In this document: one piece after another, positions 2,235-30,133 of the stretch | Layout: each line of letters starts with the position of its first letter | Numbering within the stretch: position 1 is the stretch's first letter | Virus record (IMG/VR): IMGVR_UViG_3300033182_000709 | Coordinates: 1 to 64,000 of that record | Strand: one strand, 5' to 3' | Length of the DNA stretch: 64,000 nt | Source: a virus | Notes under the pieces: generated by a model | Seen by the model: only the letters and a program-made list of their open reading frames with translations | What the model was told of the DNA's origin: nothing | Database searches by the model: none | Made by a program: the position numbers and the translations under genes

Positions 2235-3236
2235 TTAGAGAGCACCCAAAAGAGTTCTTCTAGTATCAAGAGCAGCAAAACCTTGCTCTGCCCAACCATA
2301 CATACCAGCACGACGCTGACGATGCAAGGTAGGATCTTCCCAAATCTGAACACCCTGACGAACTGGCATGACAAAGCTATCACGGTTAGTCAAATCAAGA
2401 CCAACAACGATTTCTTGCTTACCAGCAGGAAGAGTTCCAGAAAGATCATCAAGATAATAATCGTTATATTCTTGACCATCTCCAAGTTCATCTAGAACGT
2501 GAAGGTTAACGCCAAACATTCTTGCTAAGAGACCACCTTCTTGAGTGATGACTTCTCTGCGAGAAACTTCATCAAGCTCATCAACACCGAAGTTGCGAAT
2601 ATCTTCTTCAGCTTCTGGTGAGATGTAAAGGTCAGTCAATTGACCACGATTGATAGAACTTGAGTTACCACCACCATTTCTTCTCATGACAACCTTCATC
2701 AAAGAGACAAGTCTCTTGGAGAAAGTACCATTAGAAGCATCTGCATCGTAGATCAAAATGTTACGATCTGCACCAGCAGAAAGAAGTGTGTGCCAACCGT
2801 CATCATTCATCTTCTTAACAAAAGACTTCTGAAGAACTTCGGTTGCACGACCAACAACATCCCAACGTGCATCTCTAGCATACTTCAAAAGGAAGTCGAT
2901 AGAAGCACCGATGTCATAAGTTGGAACCATGACATAATCACCTTCAACATGACGCTCAGGAATGCGACCATGATTAGGAATGGTGTAAGCAACAAACTCA
3001 GACTCAGTGCCGGGAGCGAGGAAATCCAAAGGAAATTCGCTAGTAGCACCGGGAGCAAGTTGAATTGCTTCAAAAATACCACCAAGGATGTCACCATCCA
3101 TAACACCTTTTCTCAAAGGCAACTCAAGAGCCTTGGCAATTTCAGCCATAGCGGTCATAGACTCATTAGAATCATAAGAACCTGCTTTTGCAAGCAACTG
3201 ATTCATTTCATCTGTATATTCAAAATACTTACTCAT
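2235..3236 (-). CDS. Major capsid protein (HK97 fold)
   Basis: A 333-residue product in the canonical position after portal, protease/scaffold and decoration genes. The N-terminal 60 residues are helical, followed by 'GVMDGDILGGIFEAI' and the 'TIPNHGRIPERHVEGDYVMVPTYDIG' stretch that resembles the E-loop and P-domain start of HK97-type capsids. A Gly/Asn-rich turn (RRNGGGNSSS) and a C-terminal 'MYGWAEQGFAALDTRR' fit the A-domain and terminal strand of phage capsid proteins. Size is typical for the family. The start is supported by a Shine-Dalgarno (AGGGAGTG) upstream. Identification rests on synteny and motif look rather than on an alignment. Confidence 0.85.
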   Translation of the reverse strand: MSKYFEYTDEMNQLLAKAGSYDSNESMTAMAEIAKALELPLRKGVMDGDILGGIFEAIQLAPGATSEFPLDFLAPGTESEFVAYTIPNHGRIPERHVEGDYVMVPTYDIGASIDFLLKYARDARWDVVGRATEVLQKSFVKKMNDDGWHTLLSAGADRNILIYDADASNGTFSKRLVSLMKVVMRRNGGGNSSSINRGQLTDLYISPEAEEDIRNFGVDELDEVSRREVITQEGGLLARMFGVNLHVLDELGDGQEYNDYYLDDLSGTLPAGKQEIVVGLDLTNRDSFVMPVRQGVQIWEDPTLHRQRRAGMYGWAEQGFAALDTRRTLLGAL

Positions 3237-5360: not shown

Positions 5361-7481
5361 TCATTTTGAAACATAAAAATCTGCATAAAAAGCGGCCCTT
5401 ATGTTTCTAATTTCTTCAATACTCAATTTTCTATCTAAAGAAGAAGAGGTATCATCAATCCAATCTTTACACTGTCTACTATGACTTTGAGTAAATGCTT
5501 TAGTCATAGCTTGACCCATATTTTCCAATGTCAAATCCGCAAATGGTTGCAAATTCATCAATATGTTAAACTTGACCTCTTCTGCATTTTCAAACTCTTC
5601 AGCAGTAAGACTTCTCATACTTCCTTTAGTATATTGTTCTAGAATCCCCGGATTCATAAACTCTGCAATTTTGTATTGTGCATCTCTAGCCCATGTTTGT
5701 ATAGATGCCTTTAATGCAGGTTTAAATGTTCTCTCTTGCCTTGGACCAGAATCAGTAGAGTTCTTTGGTCTACCTCTTTGACCAGTATCCGCATTCTCTT
5801 GTGGTCTACCCTGAACACCGCCTTGATTCTTTTGTCTTTGTTTGGCCTCTTTCTGTCTCATAGTTAAAACAGAATCTTCTCCCTTTTTCTTCTCATCTAA
5901 CACAAGACCAACTTCACTTGGAGATGTAAGACCAGTTTGTAATGTAATCTTTTTCATTTGGAAATCTTGATCTGCCTGATGGAAAGGACTAACCTTCTCA
6001 TCTTTTCTATTATTCTCATTAGTAGTTCTTCTAGTTTCCATATCAGGATTAGCCTTAATGTATCTCTGTAGATACTCATCACTAAGAATATTTCTATCTG
6101 CCATACTCAAAAGAATATTCATAACAGAAGCAGGATCTTCCAAATTCATATAATCAAATTCAACAACAGCAGGATATCTGAAACCCATAGATTTCTGAAC
6201 TACTTTAATTTGCTCTTCCCAGAAGTTAATAACAATACTTCTTACATAATTTAACCTCTCAGTTAAAGTTTTCAAAGAAATAAAGTTATTAGTAGTTCCA
6301 CTAGCACCAAATGTCCCTGTTAATGTTGGAGGAATACCAAGTGCTGCATAGATAGCCATAAGAGTTGGACGATACTTTTCTTCTCCCAAGAAAGACTGAA
6401 CATCAGTGCTTGTTTCGATTAATTCAATATCTGGACCCCAGATAATGTCCTTTGTGCCACCTTGAACATTAGCCCCAAGAATACTCTCCAAGGCACTAGA
6501 AGCTGCTTGCGTAGGAGCAAGCTTATGATCCAAACTGCCAAGTTTCCATACCCTAATTTTTGAGATAGCACCATCCAACGCTGCTTGATCAGCAAGTTTC
6601 AATTTCTCATACAACATCAAATCTCTAAAACAGGCATAAGTCATAGGATCTGCCCATGATTGCCAGTCATCTTTTTTATAGTAATAGACAAAAGTCTTAT
6701 CTGGATCTAAAGGAATAGGTTTATTTTCACTAATAGCCCTTTTTAATTCTTTAGGAATCTCAGAAAGAATCTTCTGCATTTCAATGCTTGGATTATTAGT
6801 CATCTTACTCATGTGCATACCATAAGTAGGAGGCACCTTAATAGCATACTTAGTTTTATCTGTTAATGATGCTAAAGGTCCACCAATGACTTCTACCAAC
6901 AATGGATCAAGGAAATTGTATTTCCAAGGTATTTCGTTTTTAGCGTACTGTATGTCCCCTCCTATGGGTTGCATATCGGGGGACGCTACAGCACGTTGCA
7001 TCTCCAACCGCTTCTTAGCATTAATCTTAGCGGTCTTTGATTTTATTACGACATTTGCTTCTCTAAATAATAAGTTACATAATCTCTCAGAAACAGCCTG
7101 TCCATCAATCCTATTAAACCAATCTTTATAGAAATTCTCTACCCTTTTGTTTCTATGAGCTAACCTAACACCCTGACAAGCAAAATCACCCATCAAATCA
7201 ATAGAGTTACGAATTAACCCAATTCTTCTATAAGAATGCCTTGCATATCCAATAACTTCTTTAGGATTTGTTGGAACCCTAGAATCTGGACGAAACCAAT
7301 CAAAGTCTTGTTGTCGTAAACCGGGACGACCACTTAAATCACCTGTAAGGTCAGAAAAGTCCCTACGATAAGAAGAATAACTTCCTTTAGAAACTTGATT
7401 AGTGATAGCCTCGCCATAATCAGCAAAAGCTTGTTCCATATCTTTTTCAGATGCCCAACTACGATATGCTGGATCAGACAT
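5361..7481 (-). CDS. Portal protein
   Basis: A 706-residue product directly after the large terminase in the leftward operon. The segment 'HSYRRIGLIRNSIDLMGDFACQGVRL' (residues about 83-109) matches the opening of portal proteins, and a glycine/threonine-rich 'GTFGASGTTNNFISLKT' region (about 385-405) followed by a long helix is like the portal clip/stem region. The C-terminal 180 residues are Gln/Arg-rich and helical. Length is at the upper end for portals. It would form the dodecameric DNA entry ring. Confidence 0.85.
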   Translation of the reverse strand: MSDPAYRSWASEKDMEQAFADYGEAITNQVSKGSYSSYRRDFSDLTGDLSGRPGLRQQDFDWFRPDSRVPTNPKEVIGYARHSYRRIGLIRNSIDLMGDFACQGVRLAHRNKRVENFYKDWFNRIDGQAVSERLCNLLFREANVVIKSKTAKINAKKRLEMQRAVASPDMQPIGGDIQYAKNEIPWKYNFLDPLLVEVIGGPLASLTDKTKYAIKVPPTYGMHMSKMTNNPSIEMQKILSEIPKELKRAISENKPIPLDPDKTFVYYYKKDDWQSWADPMTYACFRDLMLYEKLKLADQAALDGAISKIRVWKLGSLDHKLAPTQAASSALESILGANVQGGTKDIIWGPDIELIETSTDVQSFLGEEKYRPTLMAIYAALGIPPTLTGTFGASGTTNNFISLKTLTERLNYVRSIVINFWEEQIKVVQKSMGFRYPAVVEFDYMNLEDPASVMNILLSMADRNILSDEYLQRYIKANPDMETRRTTNENNRKDEKVSPFHQADQDFQMKKITLQTGLTSPSEVGLVLDEKKKGEDSVLTMRQKEAKQRQKNQGGVQGRPQENADTGQRGRPKNSTDSGPRQERTFKPALKASIQTWARDAQYKIAEFMNPGILEQYTKGSMRSLTAEEFENAEEVKFNILMNLQPFADLTLENMGQAMTKAFTQSHSRQCKDWIDDTSSSLDRKLSIEEIRNIRAAFYADFYVSK

Positions 7482-29065: not shown

Positions 29066-29139
29066 GGTTGCGTAGCTCAGTGGATCAGAGCAAGCGGTTT
29101 CTACCCGCTAGGTCGGGGGTTCAAATCCCTCCGCAACTA
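29066..29139 (+). tRNA. tRNA-Arg(UCU)
   Basis: Acceptor GGTTGCG/CGCAACT (G1-U72), D-stem GCTC/GAGC, anticodon stem AGCGG/CCGCT with loop TTTCTAC (anticodon TCT), T-arm GGGGG-TTCAAAT-CCCTC. Confidence 0.9.
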
Positions 29140-29159
29140 CTTCCCTCTATGGGAATAAA

Positions 29160-29216
29160 CATGTAGATGTTATTATTGAAATTATTCTGGACGGGGCTTC
29201 GATGCCCCCACCTCCA
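29160..29216 (+). ncRNA. ssrA: Split tmRNA, acceptor piece
   Basis: The 3' tRNA-like half of a circularly permuted tmRNA. CACCTCC (29209-29215) pairs with GGGGGTG at 29835-29841, placing U70 opposite G3, the alanyl-tRNA synthetase identity pair; A73 is 29216. The T-arm is GGGGC-TTCGAT-GCCCC (29193-29208), with a loop one base short of canonical. Upstream, GTTATTAT, TTATT and CTG (29169-29189) form the 3' strand of H2 with 29854-29874. CCA is not encoded; a T-run follows. See the coding piece at 29835. Confidence 0.85.
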
Positions 29217-29284
29217 CTTTTTTTCGACCATCTCCACTATTTTTGGTATATAATAAGATATACTATTAAATAAAGGGGGTTGGA

Positions 29285-29842
29285 ATGTCAAAGATAACTT
29301 TAACATGTGATACTTGTAACAAAGAATTTGAAAAAGAGAGGAACGAATATAACAGAAGAATAAGGTTGGGTAAGAATAAGTTTTACTGTGGGTTGTCTTG
29401 TGCTGGTAAAAGTCCTGACAATACCAAACACATTAATGATGTTAGGTCTAATTTTCCAGTTTGGAAACTTTCCAATCCAAAAAAGCATGACCAATACAGT
29501 ATATTTCGTCCAACCTTAAAAGCTATCAGACAAAGAGTCAAAGATAAACCAAAAGATTTTGACCTTACGGCTGAATATCTCAAAGAAATTTGGGATGAGC
29601 AAGACGGTAAATGTCCTTTCACTGGTTTTGACCTTGAGTTAAGAACATACTCTTCAAGACGCAACTTTAGAGATAAAACACTTCATATCAAGAGTGCAAG
29701 TCTTGACAGAATAGACAACACAAAAGGGTATGTTCAAGGTAATGTTAGATGGGTTTCTGTTATGTTTAATTTTGCTCGCAATACTTTTTCAGATGAAGAT
29801 GTTGTTGAGTTTGCACAGGCCATTGTAGAAAATCGGGGGTGA
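29285..29842 (+). CDS. HNH endonuclease inside the split tmRNA locus
   Basis: 185 residues behind GGGGGTTGGA. N-terminal Cys pairs 'CDTCNKEF' and 'FYCGLSCAGKS' form a zinc finger; the nuclease core is 'GKCPFTGFDLEL' and 'SASLDRIDNTKGYVQGNVRWVS' with N-terminal part of a phage HNH/endonuclease VII-like homing enzyme. Its TGA stop (29840-29842) overlaps the first 7 bases of the tmRNA coding piece. This is the intervening segment between the two tmRNA halves, so it looks like a homing endonuclease that colonised the tmRNA gene. Confidence 0.9.
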   Translation: MSKITLTCDTCNKEFEKERNEYNRRIRLGKNKFYCGLSCAGKSPDNTKHINDVRSNFPVWKLSNPKKHDQYSIFRPTLKAIRQRVKDKPKDFDLTAEYLKEIWDEQDGKCPFTGFDLELRTYSSRRNFRDKTLHIKSASLDRIDNTKGYVQGNVRWVSVMFNFARNTFSDEDVVEFAQAIVENRG

Positions 29843-30002
29843 ATTGGTTTCGACAGGTAATAAGATATAATAACTGCATGTGGTAGTTGGTCCAAGGCTA
29901 CCTTAAAATGGACTAAACTTTATTTGCAGAGGAAACTCTTGCACTTGCAGCGTAAGCTGTCTGGGGCGGTCTGAGCCTTATTACCCAATCAGACCAGTTT
30001 TT
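29835..30002 (+). ncRNA. ssrA: Split tmRNA, tag-coding piece
   Basis: Starts GGGGGTGAATTGGTTTCGACAG, the classic tmRNA 5' motif. An H-type pseudoknot PK1 (GGTAG/CTACC at 29882-29902 and TTGGTCC/GGACTAA at 29887-29916) is followed nine bases later by the tag frame GCA...GCG TAA (29926-29955), tag AEETLALAA. The stop lies in the loop of a GCAGC/GCTGT hairpin. A final stem GGTCTGA/TCAGACC with T5 (29968-30001) probably marks the 3' end. No T-arm or acceptor 3' strand follows, because these lie upstream at 29160-29216. Confidence 0.88.
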
Positions 30003-30038
30003 ATGCCCAACCGTTTTCTGTAAAAAAACGGGGATTAT

Positions 30039-30110
30039 TCCGAAGTAGCTCAATGGTAGAGCGGGTGGCTGTTAACCACTAGGTTACTGGTTCAAGTCCA
30101 GTCTTCGGAG
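30039..30110 (+). tRNA. tRNA-Asn(GUU)
   Basis: Acceptor TCCGAAG/CTTCGGA, D-stem GCTC/GAGC, loop CTGTTAA (anticodon GTT), T-arm ACTGG-TTCAAGT-CCAGT. A CCGTTTT/AAAACGG hairpin (30011-30031) lies between it and the tmRNA coding piece, suggesting co-transcription and processing. Confidence 0.92.
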
Positions 30111-30133
30111 CTTTACTTTTATAGGAGTTTATT

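Follow-up and report, generated by a model that had tools for sequence, protein, structure and literature searches.

A PacI-like endonuclease gene in the spacer of a permuted two-piece tmRNA gene from a phage

In permuted genes for transfer-messenger RNA (tmRNA), which are known from alphaproteobacteria, betaproteobacteria, cyanobacteria and marine or aquatic phages such as Melnitz, the acceptor piece, a spacer and the coding piece follow one another in this order. The two pieces are joined by the acceptor stem and the H2 helix, and a tag and pseudoknot 1 (PK1) are present. Permuted phage tmRNAs have already been reported (PMC9004378), and of the permuted spacers described with a 2025 tmRNA database, one contains a tRNA-Ala and another a repeat (PMC11915505). 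Here we describe a locus with the same order and the same elements in a stretch of 64,000 nucleotides (nt), referred to as the window, which is part of the 81,448-base virus record IMGVR_UViG_3300033182_000709. It differs from the known permuted genes in that the spacer is 618 nt long and holds a protein gene, which is characterized below as a PacI-like endonuclease gene.

Two other kinds of described systems are comparable. Group I introns in the T-loop of tmRNA genes, some with LAGLIDADG genes (PMC11915505), likewise carry a mobile endonuclease without destroying the tmRNA gene; the window differs in having no intron and another nuclease family, and removal of its spacer would depend on tRNA processing and not on splicing. 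Phages T4 and Aeh1 likewise have free-standing homing endonucleases close to split genes or within them, examples being segB in the tRNA region and mobE, which splits nrdA (PMC2988022). They belong to other nuclease families, whereas the host of the window nuclease is an RNA gene that is already split, and homing is deduced here from sequence comparison.

We consider it likely that the locus represents a mobile, free-standing PacI-like endonuclease gene of a tmRNA-targeting group, residing in the discarded spacer of a phage permuted two-piece tmRNA. Permuted tmRNAs and free-standing homing endonucleases were already known; the endonuclease gene in a permuted spacer and the tmRNA-specialist nuclease family appear to be new. 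The first-pass annotation of the window had regarded the arrangement as without known precedent. As to the literature this agrees with our search, made mostly at title and abstract level and with subscription journals largely outside it, in which work on tmRNA with homing or HNH endonucleases was sought and neither an endonuclease gene in a permuted tmRNA spacer nor the association of this nuclease family with tmRNA genes was found. The arrangement is not unique, however, as at least ten further phage loci share it.

The permuted tmRNA gene and its recurrence

The two tmRNA halves lie between a tRNA-Arg and a tRNA-Asn gene in swapped order, with the acceptor piece upstream of the coding piece on one strand (Table 1). 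The acceptor stem (GGGGGTG with CACCTCC) forms seven of seven pairs and includes G3-U70 and the discriminator A73, the H2 helix joins the two pieces, and a tag reading frame with a stop is present. CCA is not encoded at the end of the acceptor piece. The T-loop (29198-29203) has six nucleotides instead of seven. The intervening segment is expected to be discarded on maturation.

Table 1. Features of the permuted tmRNA locus and its flanks (window positions)
Feature	Position	Strand	Basis or remark
tRNA-Arg	29066-29140		Flank upstream of the acceptor piece
tmRNA acceptor (3') piece, transcribed first	29160-29216 (start approximate)	+	RF00023; ARAGORN on joined flanks; 7/7 acceptor pairing
H2 3' strand, in acceptor piece	29160-29191	+	
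T-arm, in acceptor piece	29193-29208	+	6-nt loop TTCGAT
Acceptor strand CACCTCC	29209-29215	+	Discriminator A73 at 29216
Intervening segment, 618 nt	29217-29834	+	RF04321 alignment with ~640-nt insertion
Leader hairpin hiding the nuclease Shine-Dalgarno sequence (AAAGGGGG, 29272-29279)	29222-29284	+	Predicted RNA fold
Promoter-like TTTTGGTATATAATA in hairpin	29241-29255	+	Consensus-like box
PacI-like HNH-superfamily endonuclease, 185 aa	29285-29842	+	phrog_3322, AlphaFold2, Foldseek, dN/dS
tmRNA coding (5') piece	29835-29998 (end approximate)	+	RF00023 match; H2 partner test
GGGGGTG, start of coding piece	29835-29841	+	
H2 5' strand, in coding piece	~29852-29884	+	
PK1	29882-29886/29898-29902 and 29890-29893/29910-29913	+	
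Tag frame GCA GAG GAA ACT CTT GCA CTT GCA GCG TAA (AEETLALAA and stop)	29926-29955	+	ARAGORN
PK2-like element	ends ~29997	+	
tRNA-Asn	30039-30111		Flank downstream of the coding piece

When the full window was searched with ARAGORN, no tmRNA was called, and the tmRNA was also missed by Rfam at gathering thresholds. The ARAGORN failure is probably due to the over-long spacer; when the two flanks were joined by script so that the spacer was shortened, the program reported a permuted tmRNA with the tag AEETLALAA followed by a stop. A covariance search had been proposed as a check in the first-pass annotation. At a permissive threshold, RF00023 finds both halves, with matches at 29835-30040 for the 5' half (43.0 bits, E 1.3e-15) and at 29140-29219 for the 3' half (35.4 bits, E 1.9e-12), whereas the permuted model RF04321 (tmRNA_permuted) spans 29159-29955 at 34.5 bits (E 3.8e-5), under its gathering score of 47, and leaves an insertion of ~640 nt unaligned. 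Thus, the permuted two-piece tmRNA proposed in that annotation is recovered by the RF00023 halves, the spanning RF04321 match and ARAGORN on the joined flanks, and the pairs it had listed (acceptor stem, G3-U70, A73 and the H2 segments) are all correct. The possibility of a missed canonical acceptor half downstream of the coding piece was also checked and none is present, the feature at 30039 being the tRNA-Asn. A group I intron explanation of the locus was ruled out, since no match to the intron core model RF00028 was found in the window by Rfam scans. A DNA similarity search against isolated phages matched only the tRNAs.

The closest nuclease relative found first (61 %) lies on a 130-kb contig (L001) with an identical layout. 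The same layout was also observed in L119/L263/L264, L256, L257, L258, L259, L261, L262, L267, L273 and L081/L088/L103/L153, which gives 12 occupied permuted loci including the window, or 11 if L257 and L259 are counted once. Their tmRNA halves are diverse in sequence and come from different samples. The metagenomic source might suggest an assembly artefact or chance joining of an unrelated nuclease to tmRNA pieces. The same order of diverged sequences recurs in ten or more distinct contigs that come from different samples, which makes this hardly conceivable.

At every occupied locus the acceptor stem is paired at seven of seven positions with compensatory changes, as in the variants GGGCGTG/CACGTCC, GGGGGCG/CGCCTCC and GGGGATG/CATCTCC (compensatory pairs C4-G69 in L261, C6-G67 in L262 and A5-U68 in L273). 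When the H2 strands were exchanged among loci, the summed duplex energy of the own partners was matched by none of 100,000 partner shuffles, a figure that serves as a guide and not as a strict probability, as the test takes in related sequences and one empty relative. PK1 is built from different bases (GGUAG/CUACC plus GUCC/GGAC in the window, ACUGG/CCAGU in L001 and CGAGG/CCUCG in L119), and the tags of all occupied relatives end in ALAA, SLAA or AMAA. The tmRNA halves are under constraint across the nuclease insert, and the window tmRNA is, judging from its sequence, very probably working. A decaying tmRNA, whose gene was broken by the insertion and whose halves are remnants, could account for the altered T-loops of some relatives and for the failure of ARAGORN and strict Rfam thresholds in the window. 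We regard it as very improbable in view of the acceptor compensations, the partner specificity of H2, the rebuilding of PK1 and the conserved tags.

The spacer nuclease and its attachment to tmRNA genes

The nuclease open reading frame (ORF) occupies most of the spacer. It had no match in a Pfam search (E 0.1), and a direct PDB sequence search yielded no family. PHROG endonuclease families were matched, the best being phrog_3322 (E 2.5e-27). The protein has an N-terminal Cys motif (C8, C11, C35 and C39) and a catalytic-type motif, SLDRIDNxKGY..GN, at residues 139-153. In an alignment of 41 relatives, four Cys are invariant near the N-terminus, and SxDRID...GY...N is seen close to the C-terminus; no His is invariant, and DR occupies the place expected for DH. 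The literal H-N-H motif is therefore absent and "HNH" names the superfamily. Accordingly, the HNH gene in a loop of about 620 nt described by the first-pass annotation is retained as to the spacer (618 nt) and as to an endonuclease, by PHROG and fold, but not as to the motif itself.

An AlphaFold2 model of the nuclease had a mean predicted local distance difference test score (pLDDT) of 87.7 and a predicted template modelling score (pTM) of 0.63. When the model was searched with Foldseek, PacI (3ldy) was the best match in PDB (E 1.4e-3; probability 1.0), with a loose superposition, and in a PDB profile search PacI was listed at E 0.21, the match covering the C-terminal region (DRID..N). PacI is an HNH-superfamily homodimer in which a tyrosine replaces the general-base His (PMC4081073), and so offers a precedent for the window nuclease, whose family has no invariant His. 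The two proteins are alike in fold, in the profile match over the DRID..N region and in the Cys motif. They differ in that the identity is 15 %, the profile E-value is only 0.21 and no restriction-modification context was seen at the window locus. On the PHROG match and the predicted fold, we assign the nuclease to the HNH (beta-beta-alpha-metal) superfamily, the PacI match being a weak, superfamily-level assignment. Ratios of nonsynonymous to synonymous substitution rates (dN/dS) of 0.10-0.29 among the nuclease copies of the window clade indicate purifying selection. A second, more distant nuclease (36 %; L114) is found outside the window in the same phage (G000:80074-80343), with a similar TTTTGGTGTATAGTA box upstream and no tmRNA.

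When 40 non-redundant relatives of the nuclease were scanned with Rfam at gathering scores, 32 had a tmRNA beside the nuclease gene; among the remaining ones, about five had a tmRNA end recognizable by eye and three were near tRNAs. As a tmRNA of any kind is present in only ~2.3 % of phage genomes (PMC9004378), this association is far from chance. The tmRNAs are mostly of the standard type and usually end 40-70 nt ahead of the nuclease start codon. In L148 and L159 the nuclease gene is tail-to-tail with the tmRNA. Relatives at the same downstream position were also found at chromosomal tmRNAs of cyanobacteria and others. More distant nucleases scanned likewise had no tmRNA, and in crAss-like phages (L115-L117) the relatives have group I introns or other RNAs as neighbours instead of a tmRNA. 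The tmRNA link thus holds for one clade and not for every relative; this nuclease family is a tmRNA specialist.

Several further arrangements were observed. In L150, L162, L164 and L169 the nuclease gene is upstream of the permuted acceptor piece or overlaps its start, and is not in the spacer. In six cyanobacterial chromosomes (L278, L281, L283, L285, L286 and L304), relatives of ~270-335 aa lie directly 3' of the chromosomal tmRNA. Three loci (L156, L301 and L305) have a group I intron match over the 3' part of the tmRNA and a nuclease relative just downstream. GOLLD RNA (RF02032) occurs on contigs L107, L148 and L171, which also have a tmRNA or a tmRNA-linked nuclease.

Mobility and expression of the nuclease gene

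Synteny between L077/L099 and L153 extends to either side of the tmRNA (72-90 % identity); the spacer measures 33 nt in the empty L077/L099, and in L153 it measures 577 nt and holds the nuclease. Empty and occupied alleles, as looked for in homing, therefore occur in related genomes. L257 and L259 have near-identical nuclease genes (99.6 %) in different tmRNA genes. They share the T-arm and acceptor (100 %), tmRNA nt 1-48 (100 %) and the leader, in a block of 97-100 % identity, versus 67 % for the H2 3' strand, 81 % for nt 49-130 and unrelated DNA upstream. The gene and its near flanks are more alike than the surroundings, a co-conversion pattern that would be expected if a tmRNA gene was cut and then repaired by copying. 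We read this near-identity of the nuclease, T-arm, acceptor and 5' tRNA-like end within diverged tmRNA genes as a homing signature, which makes one of the options of the first-pass annotation, that a homing gene occupies an RNA gene without harming it, the best-supported reading.

In this scheme, the nuclease would cut tmRNA genes that are free of the element, the probable site being the T-arm/acceptor end. Recombination repair would then copy the nuclease gene together with flanking tRNA-like sequence into the cut gene, as the moved block suggests. In standard tmRNAs the gene would end up just past the 3' end, and in permuted genes the equivalent place relative to the acceptor would be the intervening segment. 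Removal of this segment by tRNA-processing enzymes would leave the tmRNA functional, consistent with the constraint on the RNA. Just after the nuclease stop in L133 and L140 (nuclease at 2501-3028 in each), 16 nt of the tmRNA 3' end recur (ATTCTCGCCGCCTCCA / ATTCCCGCCACCTCCA). This direct repeat flanks the gene and looks as if the original tmRNA 3' end had been displaced.

A different function, in which the phage supplies its own tmRNA while the nuclease cuts the tmRNA gene of the host or of a rival phage, would suit a family tied to tmRNA genes and the many phages that pair the nuclease with their own tmRNA. We find this use as a weapon quite unlikely: homing predicts both the moved block and the occurrence of empty and occupied alleles, and relatives stand beside bacterial chromosomal tmRNAs, where attack on ssrA would be self-harm. 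The two uses could coexist.

Homing genes such as I-TevI and segB of T4 and mobE of Aeh1 have a leader hairpin on the start and a promoter whose transcripts escape the hairpin (PMC2988022), and a similar arrangement is predicted for the window. The leader hairpin has a folding energy of -17.9 kcal/mol (z-score -2.8; 3/200 shuffles were as good), and similar hairpins are predicted over the nuclease start in most relatives, with z-scores down to -9. The box TTTTGGTATATAATA has its sole exact match in the window here, and sites with up to two mismatches number six (1.2 expected). Near-identical boxes are present in occupied relatives, and hairpin loops of relatives contain a TATAAT- or TATTTATA-like box. 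A transcript starting just past TTTTGGTATATAATA would be without the 5' arm of the hairpin. Long read-through transcripts would thus fold the leader and block the nuclease start, and the putative promoter in the loop would yield translatable nuclease messages.

The nuclease stop codon TGA (29840-29842) corresponds to tmRNA nt 6-8, so it does lie inside the mature tmRNA 5' end, as first annotated. In each of the 12 occupied permuted genes, which represent about three separate lineages, the nuclease stop falls within the 5' piece (nt 6-8, 11-13, 21-25 or 53-55). The TGA of GGGGGTGA is lost in L262, where the next in-frame TAG, still within the tmRNA, is the stop. Next to standard tmRNAs the nuclease gene ends in a stop of its own. 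These data could point to a regulatory role, compatible with homing, in which RNase P, by cutting ahead of tmRNA nt 1, would take the stop codon off the nuclease message, so that a mature tmRNA and a complete nuclease message exclude each other on one transcript. The truncated message would be non-stop and its product tagged by the tmRNA just made, limiting the nuclease. ArfA, whose non-stop message is held down by tmRNA, is a precedent. We consider this role possible but doubtful, as the window lineage inherited the overlap, leaving about three independent cases, and compact insertion beside nt 1 would look the same.

Origin of the permutation and significance

When a tree was drawn for the tmRNA halves, the window clade grouped with ten standard, mostly nuclease-bearing phage tmRNAs (support 86/93) and not with the sampled known permuted types, while L153 grouped with short-spacer permuted tmRNAs. 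A CATGTAG segment of the standard type is kept in much of the window clade. Forcing all permuted genes into a single clade was 41 log units worse (approximately unbiased test, p-AU 0.052), just short of formal rejection. An independent origin of the permutation in the window lineage is thus a possibility suggested by these sequences. The nuclease tree requires at least two arrivals in permuted spacers, and one of its clades (L265) includes permuted as well as standard hosts. L240 has a permuted tmRNA of the window clade with a 36-nt spacer without the PacI-like nuclease. On its reverse strand (5760-6254), another, canonical HNH-type ORF (EFHHF..CANCHREIH) crosses the whole acceptor piece and stops in this spacer.

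The permutation could have arisen from a standard tmRNA with the nuclease just after it, by tandem duplication and loss of the outer halves. We think it unlikely that the nuclease element made the split gene of the window and, in addition, that tmRNA maturation limits nuclease production through the stop in the mature RNA. If true, this would be a fourth, independent origin of two-piece tmRNA, with a nuclease gene as the spacer from the outset. Neither the tmRNA tree, nor the mixed nuclease clade (L265), nor the positions of the stop conflict with it.

Several points weigh against a homing gene in a working permuted tmRNA. Every occupied permuted case is a metagenomic phage contig. The RF04321 score is under the gathering score, probably owing to the insert. 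Consensus bases of the T-loop and D-loop are altered in some relatives (T-loops TGCAAT in L001 and ATCGTT in L119), so some tmRNA copies may be decaying. With no invariant His, we infer the catalytic competence of the nuclease from its PacI-like fold only. Finally, a DNA-pattern search gave 35 distinct tmRNA genes, of which one is occupied by the nuclease; the element is rare, with a strict tmRNA preference, and most phage tmRNA genes would be expected to lack it.

The arrangement bears on how RNA genes become permuted and on the failure of standard annotation tools to detect tmRNAs of this kind. In phages and cyanobacteria, a nuclease family linked to tmRNA genes offers a handle on the movement of tmRNA genes between phages and hosts, and its target should be predictable. 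Mobile DNA can shelter safely in a split RNA gene because the material between its pieces is thrown away.
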